A DNA stretch of 64,000 nucleotides from assembly GCA_001548435.1 (NCBI GenBank), contig AP017308.1, forward strand, positions 1,373,030 to 1,437,029. The letters are read 5' to 3'. Made by a program: the position numbers and the translations under genes. Positions 20,885-55,621 of the stretch are shown here, piece after piece. The notes below the pieces were generated by a model. The model saw nothing but the letters and a program-made list of their open reading frames with translations, was not told the DNA's origin and did no database searches. Each line of letters begins with the position of its first letter. The stretch's first letter is position 1. Source of the stretch: Leptolyngbya sp. NIES-3755. Lineage in GTDB: Bacteria; Cyanobacteriota; Cyanobacteriia; Leptolyngbyales; Leptolyngbyaceae.

Positions 20885-20931
20885 GTCGGATTTTGCGCGA
20901 TCGGATAGATTTGCTACTCTGGGTACAAGTA

Positions 20932-20970
20932 CGCTCCTTTACGATTTAGTAGGGAGCGATTTTTATTTTT
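20932..20970 (+). terminator. Probable terminator before argF
   Basis: CGCTCC and GGAGCG pair around a 15-base loop and are followed by ATTTTTATTTTTT. It would end the DUF2079 transcript, or act as an attenuator of argF, whose ATG is 16 bases downstream. The stem is only 6 pairs, so strength is moderate. Confidence 0.5.
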
Positions 20971-40843: not shown

Positions 40844-42532
40844 ATGAGTTCTTCAAATCCCGGTAGATCTCCGTCTCAATTGCTTAGTAACCGTTACCGA
40901 ACGATAGGCGTTCTGGGAGATGGGGGCTTTGGCAAAACGTTTTTGGTGGAAGATACTCAGATGCCTTCCGCTCGAAAATGTGTGCTCAAACAACTGAAGC
41001 CGATTCATGACAATCCGCAAATTCATCAACTTGTGAAAGAGCGGTTTCAGCGCGAGGCAGCGATTCTAGAACGCTTGGGAGAACATCATCGCCAAATTCC
41101 ACGACTCTATGCCTACTTTGAAGAAGGAGACGAGTTTTACTTAGTTGAAGAATGGGTTGAAGGAGAAACCTTAACTCAACGAGTGGAATTACAGGGCGTA
41201 ATGAGTGAAGCAGAAGTTCGATCAATACTCCTCGATCTCTTACCCACGATTTCAGATATTCATCGCCAAGGCATTGTTCATCGCGATATTAAGCCCGATA
41301 ACATCATTCTGCGTCGATCAGATGGTAAGCCTGTCTTGATCGATTTTGGGGCAGTGAAAGAAACGATGGGAACAGCGGTGAATTCCAATCAAACGCATTC
41401 GATCGTGATTGGGACACCGGGATATATGCCCTCCGAACAAATGGCAGGTCGCCCCGTTTTTTCTAGTGATTTGTATAGCTTGGGACTAACCGCGATCTAT
41501 TTGCTGACAGGAAGACAGCCGCAGCAATTAGACAGCGATCCGATGACGGGAAAAGTTCTCTGGCAACGGTATGTCCCGAATGTCAGTCCGGATTTTGCAA
41601 CCGCGATCGAGCGTTCAATCCAACCGTATGCCAATCAACGATTCGCCGCCGCACAAGATATGGCAATGGCACTCTCACCCGGATCAGTACCGCCTTCTAC
41701 GATGATCGCGTCTGAACTCCGAGTCGATCGACCTTCACAAACGGTACAAATTGCACCGACTCCATCAACTCAAGCGCCTGTCGTTACAAAGTCGCCTTGG
41801 ACTTGGCAATGGGCATTGATTGGAATCGGAGTCGCTTCTCTAACGGGAATTGCAGGATTGCTTGCTTATTCAACAATGCGATCGAATCCAACACCGATCG
41901 TTGCAAATTCTCCAACTACAAATAAGGTCACTTCTCCGAAACCGTCTCCCGTTGTTCCCTCGCCAGTTTCTTCACCGAAAGAGACTCCCGTTTCTAAACC
42001 GTCTCCTGTTTCTCAAGAACCTGCCAAACCTGCTGATCCGCCTGCGAAACCTGTTGAACCGCCGATCGATCAAGCTTGCAGGTTGCAAACGGGAACAACT
42101 TTGAGAGCGCAAACCTTAACGTTGGATACCTGCTCGATCGATGCGAGTAATCCATCGCTGATTCAATTTGTTTATTATCTGGATCGCGATCGCGTTCAAG
42201 CCCAAACCGATTGTGCCAGCGGAACTTGGACAAGTCTGCCAGAAAATCAGGTGAATCGTCCTCAATCTCCTGCCACCGAGAAGATGTTAGAGCGCATCTG
42301 TGGTTCAAAATCGCCGCAAGATTCAAAGCCGCCTGATGACTCTATCTCTAAAGCTGGCGTTGCAACCGTTTTTCAGCCGCCCTCGAATGTGAGAGTTTCA
42401 CCGAATGGAGCAATTCTCTGTTCGGTTCGAGAAAAGCGCGATATGAATGTCTATGACTTGAAAGGCGATTGGTATACGACCGATGTTTGTGGTACACCAG
42501 GTGTGATTCATCGGGGTCAGCTTAAGTTCTAA
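40844..42532 (+). CDS. Serine/threonine protein kinase with C-terminal SH3-like domain
   Basis: The ATG at 40844 gives 562 residues; the frame is open 6 codons further to a TTG. The kinase domain (about 15-280) shows the glycine loop [14 protein letters not shown], catalytic [13 protein letters not shown] and DFGAVKET, and the [10 protein letters not shown] activation end. One membrane helix follows ([20 protein letters not shown], about residue 325), then a Pro-rich stretch and two small extracytoplasmic parts, the last ([17 protein letters not shown]) like a bacterial SH3 domain. So it is a membrane receptor kinase with an outer sensor. It is convergent with a second kinase gene, overlapping 4 bases. 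Confidence 0.93.
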
Positions 42533-44136
42533 TTGTGCAAATCAGCTTCCCAAACGCCAACATAGATGCGGTCTTGATTGTTGCGCTCGATCACGCCTTT
42601 GAGGTTGCCTTGTTGGAATGAATAGCGATCGCGTTGTCGTCGATACACTTGTTTCAAACCTTCAATAATTTCTGGAGCCGCCTGACTGCCTAACATTCCA
42701 TTCACAGTGACTTGCAACGTTAAATCATCGACGGATTGAGCAAACGAGGCTTCGGTTTGGCGAATTTGGTTTGTGGATTGATCGTAGAGATAGCCCAAAC
42801 TAATACGATCGGGGACAGGTTCATACAAGACACTGCGCGTATTTTGCCAATAGCCTGCACCAGTTCGGACAGGATCACCCAATGCGGCTCTAACTTCTTG
42901 TTCTGGTGTTCCGACTGCGAATCCAGGAACACGACTGCTGTTCGATCGAGTAATGGCTTTCGGCATTTCTGGAGATGGCAACGACGGATCAACGGGAATC
43001 GGTTGAGGAGCGGGAGATGGAGTGGGTTTGGGGCGTGGAGAAGCGCTCTGAACTGGGGATGGACTGGGAGAGACGGATGGAGAAGGTTCTGGAGGAAGAG
43101 ACGGTAATGGACTGGGAGAATTTAGAGTGACGACGGGCGGAGATGGGCGGGATTGTATCCAAAGAATTGCGATCGCAACTCCAGTTAAAGTTAATCCCGA
43201 TAATGCTGTCAATAGCCAAACGACCCGCAATCCAGGCTTTGAAGGTTCCGGTTTGGGGACGAACATCACCGTTTCAGTCGTGGGGGTCGATGCCTTCGGG
43301 GGCTGTGTCATTTGGAAGGATGGAGAACCTTCGGGCAATAGAGCAAGCCATTCCTCGATCGTGGAAGGTCGGGTACTTGCTTGCATTGCCATTCCTCGAA
43401 GAATTGCCTGATTTACTCCTGGACTGATCGAGGATACGAGTTCTTTCGGTTCTGGCATTCGTTCATGATCTCGTAGAATCGATGCCGTTGGAACTGTTGC
43501 CGTTACTAATGCGTAGAGTGTTGCTGCAAGTCCATACACGTCATTAGCAGGACTACGTTTTTCCTGAGCAAAATACTGCTCAATCGGCGCATATCCGACC
43601 GACATCATTTGTGTGTGCGTTTGCGTTGAATTTAGTGTAAATTCTCGTGAGATTCCGAAGTCAATTAGGATTGCTTCCTGGGTTTTCTCATGCAGAATAA
43701 TGTTTTGAGGTTTGATGTCTCGGTGCAGTAATCCATTCCGGTGAACGACTTGAAGCGCAGAGCCGATTTGTCGAATGTAGTGAATGGCAACCGATTCAGG
43801 CATGGGTCGATCGGGAAATACCAAATCTTCCAACGTCTTACCGGGAATGTAATCCATCACCATGTAAGCGCGATCGTCTTCGATGAAAAAATCGCTGACG
43901 CGCACAATATTGGGATGAATACACAGAGCAAGACGACGAGCTTCATCCTGGAACTTGCGCTGAAGATCCGGGAAATTGGGCTGCGATCGTAGTGATTCAT
44001 TCAGCGTTTTAATCACCACGGTTTGTTCGAGAAAGTGGTGAATCGCTTTATAAGTCACTCCAAATCCACCCTGACCGATTTCTTCTTGTAGGGTGTATTT
44101 GCCGTTTGAGAGCGTTGTACCGATAAGAGAATTCAT
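42529..44136 (-). CDS. Serine/threonine protein kinase, membrane-anchored
   Basis: The 535-residue protein has a kinase domain at about 1-270: [35 protein letters not shown] and the VGYAPIEQY element. A membrane helix ([20 protein letters not shown]) lies near residue 310, followed by a Pro/Ser-rich linker and a C-terminal about 140-residue domain ([19 protein letters not shown]) seen in cyanobacterial kinases and likely extracytoplasmic. Its ligand is unknown. It shares the kinase-TM-sensor plan with the neighbouring convergent kinase gene but has a different outer domain. Confidence 0.92.
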
Positions 44137-44145
44137 GCTGACAGG

Positions 44146-44949
44146 TCAACTTGCACTTCGAGGGAGCGTACATCGGATCTGAGTGATTTTTTCCTCTGAT
44201 CCACTGGGCATCTTCACGAATTCTAACCGACCATTCATCAACTCCATTAGGCTCTGATTGAGTAATAAGCTGAAACCTAAAGATGGCGGCTCTAAATCGG
44301 GGGGTGAATCTTTTTTCAATAGATCGATCGCGTCTCGCCAAACCTCGATCGGGCGTTCGTCTTCCAAATCGATGTAGACGAAATTAGAATCAGTTTGGGC
44401 TGAGAGTTTCAGCGTTCCATCCTGCATTGTCGCGATCGCACTACTAATCAAACTGGTGAGAACTTGTTCGAGAGACTTGCGATCGCACATCACTTCAAGA
44501 TCCGGTTCTGGTGACACAATCTGAAATGGCAAATTCCGATTCTCGGCTAATAGATGCGTCAGAGAAAACACATTGTCAAACACATCAGAAACAGAAACAG
44601 ACTTTAAATCTAATTTGCCTGTCCCGAATTCAACTTTTGAAATATTGATTACTTCATCGAGCAACTTCACCATTTTCAAAGCGGACTCATTAGCTTGTTC
44701 GATGAATTCGCGTTCTTCTTCTGGCGATTTACATAAGTCTGCAAGAATTAGTTGATGTGCGCCGATCATGCCGTTTAAAGGAGATCGCAGTTCGTGAGAA
44801 GTCCGGGCTAGGAATCCCGCTTTGAATTGGGCTTGTTCGAGCAGCGATCGGTATGCAAGTTCAGACTGTCGATCGAGCTTTTTCCGATTCGCGAACCAGC
44901 CACCGACAAAACCCATTCCCAATCCGGTGATTAAATCCACTAAATTCAT
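44146..44949 (-). CDS. Degenerate sensor histidine kinase
   Basis: ATG 44949 gives 267 residues; a GTG three codons upstream is possible. One N-terminal membrane segment (LITGLGMGFVGGWF) is followed by a HisKA dimerisation box, SHELRSPLNGMIGAHQL, with the phospho-accepting His. The ATPase part is weak: the N box reads LTSLISSAIATMQDG instead of NLxxNAxKF, and no clear GxGxG loops are visible. It may therefore be phosphorylated by another kinase or act as an inactive partner. It lies 40 bases after the BMP-type binding protein and is likely the end of that operon, so it might sense that system's ligand. Confidence 0.7.
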   Translation of the reverse strand: MNLVDLITGLGMGFVGGWFANRKKLDRQSELAYRSLLEQAQFKAGFLARTSHELRSPLNGMIGAHQLILADLCKSPEEEREFIEQANESALKMVKLLDEVINISKVEFGTGKLDLKSVSVSDVFDNVFSLTHLLAENRNLPFQIVSPEPDLEVMCDRKSLEQVLTSLISSAIATMQDGTLKLSAQTDSNFVYIDLEDERPIEVWRDAIDLLKKDSPPDLEPPSLGFSLLLNQSLMELMNGRLEFVKMPSGSEEKITQIRCTLPRSAS

Positions 44950-44998
44950 CGTTGCCACCGCTAACCACGTCTATGAGTGTAGCGGTGGCAGTGACGAT

Positions 44999-46204
44999 CT
45001 AAGCGGTCTTGCCGATTACACCTTCGACCAGCCAGTTCATCGATTCAAGCTCGATCGCGGTTGCACCGAAATCTTTGCCTGCTGGAACCACTGTCTTTCC
45101 GGTATTGTCCTTCAGTCCACCTTTGTAAACGATCAACGAACCAGTTTGCATCTGGGCGACAACGCCATCCGCTGCTTTCTTCGCTTCCGCTGTGACTGCT
45201 GGACCAAACGGCGAAATTTTCACAAATCCATCTTTGTATCCGCCGCGTAGCAAATGGGGAATGCCACCGTTCATCAGCGTTTTTCCTTCCTGAATCAGCT
45301 TGGCATAGTCGGTATACACTTTCGTCCAGTCCCATTCGGCTCCAGTGAGATAGCCTTTGGGAGCAAGAGAGGCTTGATTCGCGTGATAGCCCGATGAGAA
45401 CACGCCACGTTTTTCTGCGGTTTCCATCACCACTTTCGGACTGTCCACGTGGCAGGTAATCACGTCTGCGCCTTGGTCAACTAAGCTATTGGTTGCTTCA
45501 GCTTCTTTGACCGGAAGTGACCAGTCTCCAGTGAAAATAACTTGCGTGGTAATCGCAGGCTTAACGCTTCTTGCACCCAGTGTGAAGCTGTTGATATTCC
45601 GCAGGACTTGGGGAATCGGTTTTGCGGCTACGAATCCAAGCTTTCCAGTTTTGCTCATATAGCCCGCAACAACTCCTGCAACGTATTGAGCTTCGTCAAT
45701 GTATCCGAAGTAGCTTCCGACATTTTTCGGGTGTTTTGCGGCATCGTACAGAGCACCACAGTGGAAGAATTGCACTTCGGGATATTCGCCTGCCATTTTG
45801 AGAATGTGTGGATCAAAGTAGCCGAATGAAGTGGGGAACAGAACGGTTGCTTTGTCCTGCTCGATCATGTTCCGCATCGCTTCCTGAACTTCAGTGGTTT
45901 CAGGAACGCTTGCTTGATCAACCGTTTTGATGTTCAGCGCTTTTAAGCCTTCTTTGCCTTGATAATGCGCCTGGTTATAGCCAAAGTCGTCTTTGGGTCC
46001 GACATAAATGAAGCCCATGACAAGATCGCTCGCAGAGACGGGACTTGCTGCGGGACTTCCTCCAGAGGCGGTTGTGGTGGTGTTGGTGGCAGGAGTGCAA
46101 CCTGTCCAGAGTTTCGAGGTCGCGCCAAAGGCTCCAGTTGCGAGTAGCCCCCGAATCACTTGGCGACGGGAAACTTTTGAATGGTGTGAATTATTTGTAC
46201 TCAT
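44999..46204 (-). CDS. BMP family ABC-type substrate-binding lipoprotein
   Basis: The 401-residue protein has a twin-arginine export signal (SRRQVIRGLLATGAFG) and a lipobox-like WTGC near residue 35, so it is probably a Tat-exported lipoprotein. The mature part is a BMP/PnrA-like two-lobe binding domain: it has MGFIYVGPKDDFGYNQAH, VLFPTSFGYFDPHIL, YVAGVVAGYMSKTGKLGFV and GADVITCHVDSP. Homologues bind nucleosides or related amides. No ABC permease or ATPase gene is adjacent, so it either works with a distant transporter or acts only in sensing. It is the third gene of the formamidase operon. Confidence 0.88.
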   Translation of the reverse strand: MSTNNSHHSKVSRRQVIRGLLATGAFGATSKLWTGCTPATNTTTTASGGSPAASPVSASDLVMGFIYVGPKDDFGYNQAHYQGKEGLKALNIKTVDQASVPETTEVQEAMRNMIEQDKATVLFPTSFGYFDPHILKMAGEYPEVQFFHCGALYDAAKHPKNVGSYFGYIDEAQYVAGVVAGYMSKTGKLGFVAAKPIPQVLRNINSFTLGARSVKPAITTQVIFTGDWSLPVKEAEATNSLVDQGADVITCHVDSPKVVMETAEKRGVFSSGYHANQASLAPKGYLTGAEWDWTKVYTDYAKLIQEGKTLMNGGIPHLLRGGYKDGFVKISPFGPAVTAEAKKAADGVVAQMQTGSLIVYKGGLKDNTGKTVVPAGKDFGATAIELESMNWLVEGVIGKTA

Positions 46205-46281: not shown

Positions 46282-46965
46282 TCACAATCCCGATTTCAGC
46301 GCGGTGATTAGCTCGATCGAATCGCTCACGGCTCCAAATACGCCACCTTGCATTTTGATCATCTTGAGCGCTGCGAGATAGTTACCGTAATCGGTCGCGC
46401 CTGTGCAATCCGAGAGCAATAAACATTCGTATCCTCGATCGTTTGCATCTCTCATCGTGGTATGAACACAAACATCGGTCGTAATTCCCGTGAGAATCAA
46501 GTTCTGGATTCCTTTGCGGGTCAGAATTAAATCCAAATCGGTGGCATAAAACGATCCTTTTCCGGGTTTATCAATGATCACTTCTCCTGGCAGTGGGGCA
46601 AGTTCTGAGATAATTTCCCATCCTGGTTCGCCCCGCACGAGAATTTTTCCACAAGGTCCTGGATCGCCAATCCCGGCTCCGATTTGTTGCGATCGCCATC
46701 TTTTGTTTTCTGGTAAATCAGATAGATCTGGGCGATGACCTTCGCGGGTGTGAATAATGTGAAAATTGAGCGATCGCATCACTTCCATCACTTGGCGAAT
46801 TGGCTCGATCGGGGCACGAGTCAGAGATAGGTCATACCCCATCTTGTCTACATAGCCCCCTTTTCCACAAAAATCGGTTTGCATATCAATCACAATCAGC
46901 GCCGTATTTTCAGGACGCAAATCGCCATTGAATGGATACGGATAGGGATCGGCTTTAACGAACAT
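46282..46965 (-). CDS. Isochorismatase-like cysteine hydrolase
   Basis: The 227-residue protein has the isochorismatase-type catalytic triad: Asp in [16 protein letters not shown], Lys in the [17 protein letters not shown] segment, and Cys in [17 protein letters not shown]. With this triad the group includes biuret, ureidoacrylate and N-carbamoyl amidohydrolases, so a nitrogen-releasing C-N hydrolysis is likely, in line with the neighbouring formamidase and the NtcA promoter. The exact substrate cannot be read. It starts 3 bases after the formamidase, with GGAGG over that gene's end. Confidence 0.88.
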
Positions 46966-47995: not shown

Positions 47996-48044
47996 TGCCC
48001 TCAAGAATGCTTTGGGTCAGCTTTATCACACTTTTTTGAGGGCA
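47996..48044. promoter_or_regulatory. 9-bp inverted repeat around the amiF promoter
   Basis: TGCCCTCAA (47996-48004) and TTGAGGGCA (48036-48044) are perfect inverted copies flanking a 31-base spacer. The right arm lies between the NtcA box and the -10 element, and the left arm just before the amiF start. It could bind a second regulator or fold in the mRNA leader; no regulator is identified. Confidence 0.35.
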
Positions 48045-48048
48045 ATTC

Positions 48049-48062
48049 GTATTTGAGGATAC
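48049..48062 (-). promoter_or_regulatory. NtcA-binding box of the amide operon
   Basis: The sequence GTATTTGAGGATAC fits the NtcA consensus GTA-N8-TAC exactly. On the minus strand it is followed after 21 bases by GATAAA (48022-48027), which can serve as -10. This is the spacing of NtcA-activated class II promoters (about 20-24). The start codon of amiF is 57 bases from the box. It predicts activation of the operon when nitrogen is scarce (high 2-oxoglutarate). Confidence 0.75.
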
Positions 48063-48075
48063 GGTTTTGCAGTTC

Positions 48076-48936
48076 CTAACACGGAATCGGAAAGAACAAA
48101 ACAGGATGCACACTCCGGCGTAAGAGTTCTGCTGCAAAGCTTGGAACAAATCCTCGATTGCCATTGTTCGAGGTAATTGCGATCGCGCTAACATCTTTGT
48201 CTTGTGCAGCTTGTAAGATTTGTACGATCGCATTTCCACGTCGCAGTTCGATTTCGGTCTTGATACCCGCTGCTTGCAATTTCGCTTGAGTCGGCTTCAA
48301 TGTTTCAGAGACTAATCGATCTTCTTCTGCTTGCGATAGTTCATATCTTCCACCCTCATCGACCACGCGGCAGAGGTAGCAGAGTTGATCCGTTTCAGGC
48401 TGTGCAAGTCTTACAAGCTCAGAGACCGTATGTTTCGAGGCTGTACTGTCATCATACGGAACTAACAATCCACGGAAGAGATGCTGACAGCGTAAGTTTA
48501 GTTCTTCAGCGGTCAGTGCTGAAATTAATTGAGGACGGACCGTCATTAATGGGATTGTCGATCGCTGTGATAGTTCTGCCGTAGTGCTGCCGAACAGTTT
48601 CTCAGTCAGAGCGTTACGGCTTTCAGTGCCCATGAGAATAACATCACAATTGTAAGTTTTGGCAGCGCGAAGAATCACATCGATCGCTTTTCCGGGTTGA
48701 ACTTCGGTTTTCACTTCGATGCCTGAAGGGATGTTGTTTAGAGCCGCAGCGAATCTTTTTTGGGCACGATCGACTTTTTCCGCATCAGGTTTTGGAACTC
48801 CAACATCTTCCCTGAAGGGCACAACGTGGAGGAACACAATTTGTTTGATGCCCCCTGTTGCAATTTGGGGAACGAAATTTACCAGTCGTTGCAGACCATC
48901 TGTAAAGTCAGTACAAATTAGGATTCGTTGAAACAT
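48076..48936 (-). CDS. Universal stress protein with two Usp domains
   Basis: Starting at ATG 48936 (MFQRILICTDFTDG) gives 286 residues, two UspA-like domains in tandem. The first (about 1-140) has the ATP-binding pattern ILMGTESRNALTEKLFGSTT; the second (from about 155) starts LLVPYDDSTASKHTV and ends IAITSNNGNRGFVPSFAAELLRRS. The first domain keeps the G-2x-G-9x-G(S/T)-like motif, the second is looser. USPs are cytoplasmic and help survive stress; the partner is unknown. The operon context is unclear, and the preceding amiF promoter lies just downstream. Confidence 0.88.
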   Translation of the reverse strand: MFQRILICTDFTDGLQRLVNFVPQIATGGIKQIVFLHVVPFREDVGVPKPDAEKVDRAQKRFAAALNNIPSGIEVKTEVQPGKAIDVILRAAKTYNCDVILMGTESRNALTEKLFGSTTAELSQRSTIPLMTVRPQLISALTAEELNLRCQHLFRGLLVPYDDSTASKHTVSELVRLAQPETDQLCYLCRVVDEGGRYELSQAEEDRLVSETLKPTQAKLQAAGIKTEIELRRGNAIVQILQAAQDKDVSAIAITSNNGNRGFVPSFAAELLRRSVHPVLFFPIPC

Positions 48937-55475: not shown

Positions 55476-55621
55476 GTTTTAGAACTCAAACAAGGCACTT
55501 AACCATAATCCTTCTTGTCTGAGATTCAGTCTAGCCCATGTTAATTCTTCTCCATCTTCAAACAGAAAAATGAATTTTGTTTACAAAAATACGGTTTAGC
55601 ACAACTCTGAAATGGATCTCG

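Follow-up and report, generated by a model that had tools for sequence, protein, structure and literature searches.

Is amiF, the first of a set of predicted amide-breakdown genes in Leptolyngbya sp. NIES-3755, under the control of NtcA, and how closely does its promoter follow the canonical form? According to PMC3898017, a canonical NtcA-activated promoter combines a GTAN8TAC box with a -10 hexamer TAN3T at class II distance, i.e., with the centre of the box approximately 41.5 bases before the transcription start. The initial annotation of the window (the whole stretch of 64,000 nucleotides analysed here) described the region in front of amiF as a textbook NtcA promoter. The locus contains the following features.

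48076-48936, minus strand: usp, universal stress protein gene (PF00582), in the same direction as amiF
48049-48062, minus strand: NtcA-type box, GTA-N8-TAC, GTATCCTCAAATAC on the coding strand, read directly from the sequence
48020-48027, minus strand: candidate -10 region GATAAAGC, read directly from the sequence
48014, minus strand: predicted transcription start, placed by the class II geometry in PMC3898017
46969-47991, minus strand: amiF, predicted nitrilase-superfamily formamidase, 340 aa (NF009803, 576 bits, cut-off 406; 5g3o, 2dyu)
46282-46965, minus strand: biuH, predicted biuret amidohydrolase, 227 aa, 3 bases past amiF (NF050097, 415.3 bits, cut-off 370)
44999-46204, minus strand: bmp, ABC-transporter substrate-binding protein, Bmp/PnrA-like, 401 aa (PF02608)
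44146-44958, minus strand: histidine kinase-domain protein, 270 aa (PF00512), after bmp here and in two congeners

The box lies in the 84-bp gap between usp and amiF, with the usp stop codon 13 bases before it and amiF 57 bases after it, and spans positions -71 to -58 relative to the amiF ATG (47991). On the plus strand it reads GTATTTGAGGATAC, which confirms the exact fit to GTA-N8-TAC that had been reported, and the GATAAA hexamer placed 21 bases further on the coding strand is also there (48022-48027, minus strand; TTTATC on the plus strand). The candidate -10 region offers two options, GATAAA at 21 bases and TAAAGC at 23 bases past the box, neither of which is TAN3T. The spacing between box and hexamer fits the class II distance, and the predicted start at 48014 lies approximately 41.5 bases past the box centre. 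In the Anabaena ChIP study of Picossi et al. (PMC3898017), which covered 508 sites, GTN10AC was the highly conserved core, A3 and T12 were merely prevalent, and T4, C5, A10 and A11 showed some conservation in the 40 strongest regions; all of these last four bases are present in the amiF box of this genome. We class the putative amiF promoter as NtcA-type, not as canonical.

The assignment of the downstream genes to amide breakdown agrees with the profile scores, by which a formamidase adjoins a biuret amidohydrolase, enzymes that would liberate ammonia from formamide and biuret. Residues 3-323 of AmiF align to the solved formamidase 5g3o, and the predicted enzyme has a Glu-Lys-Cys triad at E60, K129 and C162, which we take to be its catalytic positions. 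The catalytic triad of formamidases is partly described in PMC10781810. The structure matches of BiuH are 6azo (411 bits) and the biuret hydrolase 6xjm (342 bits), and the best solved chain for Bmp is 6pi5, "Atrazine periplasmic binding protein" (205 bits). Of 49 cyanobacterial amiF loci, many of them truncated where a contig ends, a biuH-type gene is present in 24, and bmp with two permeases precedes amiF in 13. Within the genus, amiF is present in six of eight genomes, this genome (G000) included, and in these six congeners the permeases and the ATPase are grouped elsewhere in the genome. The permease-permease-ATPase locus, which accompanies amiF in other cyanobacteria, is without GTAN8TAC just upstream; a GTG-N8-TAC at this locus recurs in five of the six congeners, again without TAN3T, and is too weak to claim. 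In the window (42529-46204), bmp stands apart from permeases, and a histidine kinase gene and a Ser/Thr kinase-like gene come next, here and in two congeners; bmp might serve as a sensor. Cyanuric acid hydrolase (PF09663) had no match in the six genomes and likewise none in 14 control genomes, so that the lack of matches does not establish its absence. The allophanate hydrolase model TIGR02713 was not matched above its cut-off in any of the six; all six have neighbouring genes for the amidase and the C-terminal domain, and the hydrolase thus seems to be split into two genes (here L205:4592-6521, reversed, about 4190.5-4192.4 kb of G000:C1), before which no NtcA-type box was found by the fixed rule given below.

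How much weight can the motif itself bear? The window contains 12 GTAN8TAC, compared to a shuffle mean of 3.24, and none of 100 shuffles reached 12. The whole genome contains 523 in 6,761,657 bases, compared to 1492 of the reversed control pattern CATN8ATG, i.e., GTAN8TAC is not over-represented genome-wide against this control, and because of these 523 occurrences the motif alone is weak evidence. The genome rate corresponds to 4.95 per 64 kb, and a single match near some gene start in 64 kb is therefore unsurprising; for the usp-amiF gap the expectation is 0.0065, which makes a box in one chosen gap mildly unlikely and is not decisive when the whole window is scanned.

We also scored the window with a matrix of 21 sites located before glnA, urtA, the second amt gene, ntcA, amiE and fmdA, a small matrix (its sites, each scored with their own gene left out, range from 1.2 to 26.7) that leans towards the consensus, because it was built only from sites that were found. 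The amiF box took the third place among approximately 128,000 positions on both strands. Its score is 15.9, compared to 14.9 for the box of G002 and 2.4 to 6.6 for those of four other congeners; the ranks that these five boxes would take in the window are 3rd, 18th, 26th, 26th and 90th. The two window sites that outscore the amiF box are at 208-221 and near 55592. The former, GTAAACAGCAATAC, has the top score in the window, with TAAAGT 20 bases on, and stands before a PhzF-family gene at 351. Another possible NtcA-type site, suggested by its sequence, is GTACGCTCCTTTAC at 20929-20942, with TATTTT 21 bases on and 57 bases before argF (ornithine carbamoyltransferase, 20986).

In our assessment, it is conservation in relatives that raises the amiF box above chance and carries the case. 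A block of 74 bases before amiF is present in the six genus genomes with amiF and in none of 36 other family genomes searched, and conservation in all six extends over approximately 70 bp, from the box as far as the ATG. The DNA beyond the block is of four kinds without mutual BLASTN similarity: over 1500 bases upstream of amiF, only 58-77 bases are common between G000, G001, G002 and the trio G005/G006/G007, the members of the trio having common upstream DNA. The box reads GTATCCTCAAATAC here, GTATTCCAAAGTAC in G002 and GTATC-N6-CAC in the other four congeners; accordingly, GT-N10-AC is kept in six of six, GTA and AC are invariant, the interior varies, and the right half is TAC in two and CAC in four. 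Within the -10 region, TGTGATAAAGCTGAC is unchanged in all six. The base that follows the box is G in the six amiF boxes versus A in all 21 control sites of the matrix, and it is chiefly in this G and in the lack of TAN3T that the amiF promoter departs from the canonical form. With these two departures, and with a perfect GTA-N8-TAC in only two of six congeners (here and G002), the label "textbook" is too strong.

The imperfect boxes, the missing TAN3T and the 523 genomic matches would also fit a chance palindrome, in which case the block is kept for other promoter elements, and amiF is driven by an NtcA-independent promoter or by read-through from upstream, where the co-directional usp ends 84 bases before amiF. 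We regard this as unlikely, given that the conservation includes the box, while the DNA beyond is unrelated among the four upstream contexts, that the spacing is class II-like, and that boxes recur in other groups.

The promoters of nitrogen genes in the same genomes served as controls. NtcA is encoded (388.7 bits, cut-off 244.95, in a profile search of the genome). For glnA, all six congeners have GTAN8TAC-N22-TACCAT; for urtA, the box is followed by TAGTAT after 22-23 bases in six of six (GTA in four, GTG in two). The second amt gene has GTAN8TAC in four of six, without TAN3T at 19-25 bases, and no box in G000 and G006; the first amt gene has no box close to its start in the six genomes; the upstream region of ntcA itself has GTAN8TAC without TAN3T. 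The profile search gave eight further NtcA-model matches below the cut-off, which are CRP-like proteins, one of them encoded approximately 1 kb left of the window. Together with CAC in place of TAC in four congeners, these proteins leave some room for the palindrome being used by another CRP-family regulator instead of NtcA; the perfect box here and in G002 equals that of glnA and urtA, and the genes downstream are nitrogen-releasing, which makes such a regulator quite unlikely.

NtcA-type boxes before amiF were found in two groups besides the genus ("Nodosilinea-type", "Leptolyngbya-type" and "Pseudanabaena-type" are our own labels). Eight Nodosilinea-type genomes have GTA-N8-CAC (one GTG-N8-CAC) 22-23 bases before TATAGT, and nine other Leptolyngbya-type genomes have GTG-N8-TAC (one GTA-N8-CAC) 22 bases before TAAA or TAGA. 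It should be noted that the resulting 23 of 23 for GT and AC, the six of the genus included, is partly by construction, because the rows were gathered via GT-N10-AC in alignable upstream regions; the agreement in the distance from box to hexamer across groups is not. Seven Pseudanabaena-type upstream regions have no GT-N10-AC box at that place. In two of the nine genomes (G012, G022) amiF is in two overlapping frames and perhaps broken, and G028 has amiF fragments with internal stops (G028:C1:5022002-5022532); these represent decay or sequencing errors.

For the 13 loci with bmp and permeases before amiF, GTAN8TAC-N22-TAN3T was found near the bmp start in two (L039, L067), GTAN8TAC without TAN3T in two (L040, L092), only a weaker GT-N10-AC in four (L041, L044, L051, L062), and none in five. 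We then applied a fixed rule (a site is either GTAN8TAC, or a GT-N10-AC in which one half is complete and which TAN3T follows at 21-24) to operon heads, and used as controls 324 other genes of at least 150 aa of the same loci. Sites were detected at 17 of 52 operon heads versus 30 of 324 other gene starts (p = 2.6e-5), a comparison in which the genomes are related, not independent, and seven of the 17 positive heads are Nodosilinea-type; the remaining 35 operon heads have no site by this rule. GTAN8TAC alone gave 9 of 52 versus 21 of 324 (p = 0.013), and the strict combination of GTAN8TAC and TAN3T gave 2 of 52 versus 3 of 324 (p = 0.14).

A second amide locus, amiE-fmdA (L190:3640-6703; G000:C1 458639-461702), encodes AmiE (711.7 bits, cut-off 427) and FmdA (674.4 bits, cut-off 500). 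The putative amiE promoter is GTAAAACTAGATAC-N22-TATGAT, 233 bases ahead of amiE, and that of fmdA is GTATAGTTAGGTAC-N22-TAGAAT, 250 bases ahead of fmdA; thus, the fully canonical NtcA-type amide promoters predicted for this genome are those of amiE and fmdA, not that of amiF. UrtA-like ABC genes lie downstream of fmdA, and a histidine kinase gene and a response regulator-MarR-like gene lie upstream of amiE. Among the six congeners, the locus was seen only in G000 and G006 (L191), with identical boxes. In Arthrospira, the FmdA formamidase is up under nitrogen limitation (PMC4509649) and falls along with other nitrogen genes under radiation (PMC8400943), which is an analogy only, because FmdA belongs to another family than AmiF.

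Control mainly by substrate, with NtcA as a minor helper and with a sensor of amides such as the downstream histidine kinase plus the BMP protein, would accord with bmp and a HisKA gene after biuH here and in two congeners and with the separate location of the permease and ATPase genes in all six, and is very unlikely, as the sensor role is guessed from gene order and no second conserved operator was noticed in the block besides the inverted repeat.

The region between the box and the amiF ATG also contains two complementary segments.

48036-48043, minus strand: GCCCTCAA, between the box and the -10 region, complementary to the amiF ribosome-binding region
47997-48004, minus strand: TTGAGGGC, with the ribosome-binding site GAGGG (47998-48002), 6 bases 5' of the amiF ATG

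The two form 6-9 perfect pairs in the six congeners. They could constitute a two-layer switch, in which a read-through message would hide the ribosome-binding site in a stem and stay silent, whereas an NtcA-started message, without the 5' arm, would be open; this model we consider doubtful. The predicted unpaired fraction of the site is 0 to 0.055 in the read-through RNA versus 0.50 to 0.85 in the short RNA in all six congeners, and the folding z-scores are weak (-0.96 to -1.97). Pairing holds in 47 of 48 pair cells; five of the eight pairs never vary and three vary on one side only; a wobble pair remains in four of the five changed cells, and pairing is lost in the fifth. The stem shows no compensatory change in the six congeners, and alignment shuffles do equally well. 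Stems of at least 8 bp over the start region were found in 4 of the 69 window ORFs, amiF among them, and an evolved RNA switch was adopted no further than as a hypothesis, because the arm is also part of the conserved promoter. A GTGTG/CACAC repeat around the -10 region is not intact in this genome and in G002 and was therefore discarded. Between 44000 and 50000, Rfam at gathering thresholds gave no RNA family.

The observations are explained most simply by an NtcA-activated class II promoter whose -10 region is sub-optimal. We consider it probable that such a promoter drives amiF-biuH and probably bmp, and very probable that the box is an NtcA binding site. Of the initial annotation, NtcA control of the amide operon is supported by the congeners, the two further groups, the glnA and urtA boxes and the gene content, and its "textbook" form is not. 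We infer the binding of NtcA, its activating effect under nitrogen shortage, the start point and how far the operon reaches. In cells short of nitrogen, NtcA together with 2-oxoglutarate would bind GTATCCTCAAATAC and recruit RNA polymerase to the weak -10 region approximately 21-23 bases downstream; transcription from near 48014 would leave a leader of approximately 23 bases before amiF. The message would carry amiF, biuH and probably bmp, and therefore the formamidase, the biuret amidohydrolase and the binding protein would be made, by which nitrogen would be liberated or captured from small amides and ureas.

With this reading, the likely NtcA regulon of a non-model cyanobacterium gains an AmiF-type formamidase and a biuret amidohydrolase, and amiF is preceded by NtcA-type boxes in three groups. 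The reading predicts that formamide and biuret, the latter an impurity of urea fertiliser (PMC7700744), are used as nitrogen sources under nitrogen stress. In one open-licence literature collection, we found no paper linking NtcA with AmiF or with biuret hydrolase, and a word search of the main text of a survey of cyanobacterial urea genes (PMC6737895) gave no mention of biuret or formamide.

Compared to known systems, this AmiF has the enzyme family and the catalytic Glu-Lys-Cys in common with AmiF of Helicobacter pylori and Bacillus cereus; the H. pylori amiF responds to acid via Fur and NikR (PMC10781810), not to NtcA. The canonical class II promoters of glnA and urtA resemble the amiF promoter in GTA-N8-TAC, in the 21-23 bases from box to hexamer and in their position before nitrogen-scavenging genes, whereas amiF is without TAN3T, has G instead of A after the box, and has CAC as the right half in four of six congeners. 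The amiE and fmdA promoters likewise have GTAN8TAC boxes before amide-breakdown genes and, unlike amiF, have TAN3T 22 bases downstream of the box. With NtcA binding and regulation as predicted here, the amiF promoter is a plausible further member of a familiar class of switches and does not define a system of a new kind.
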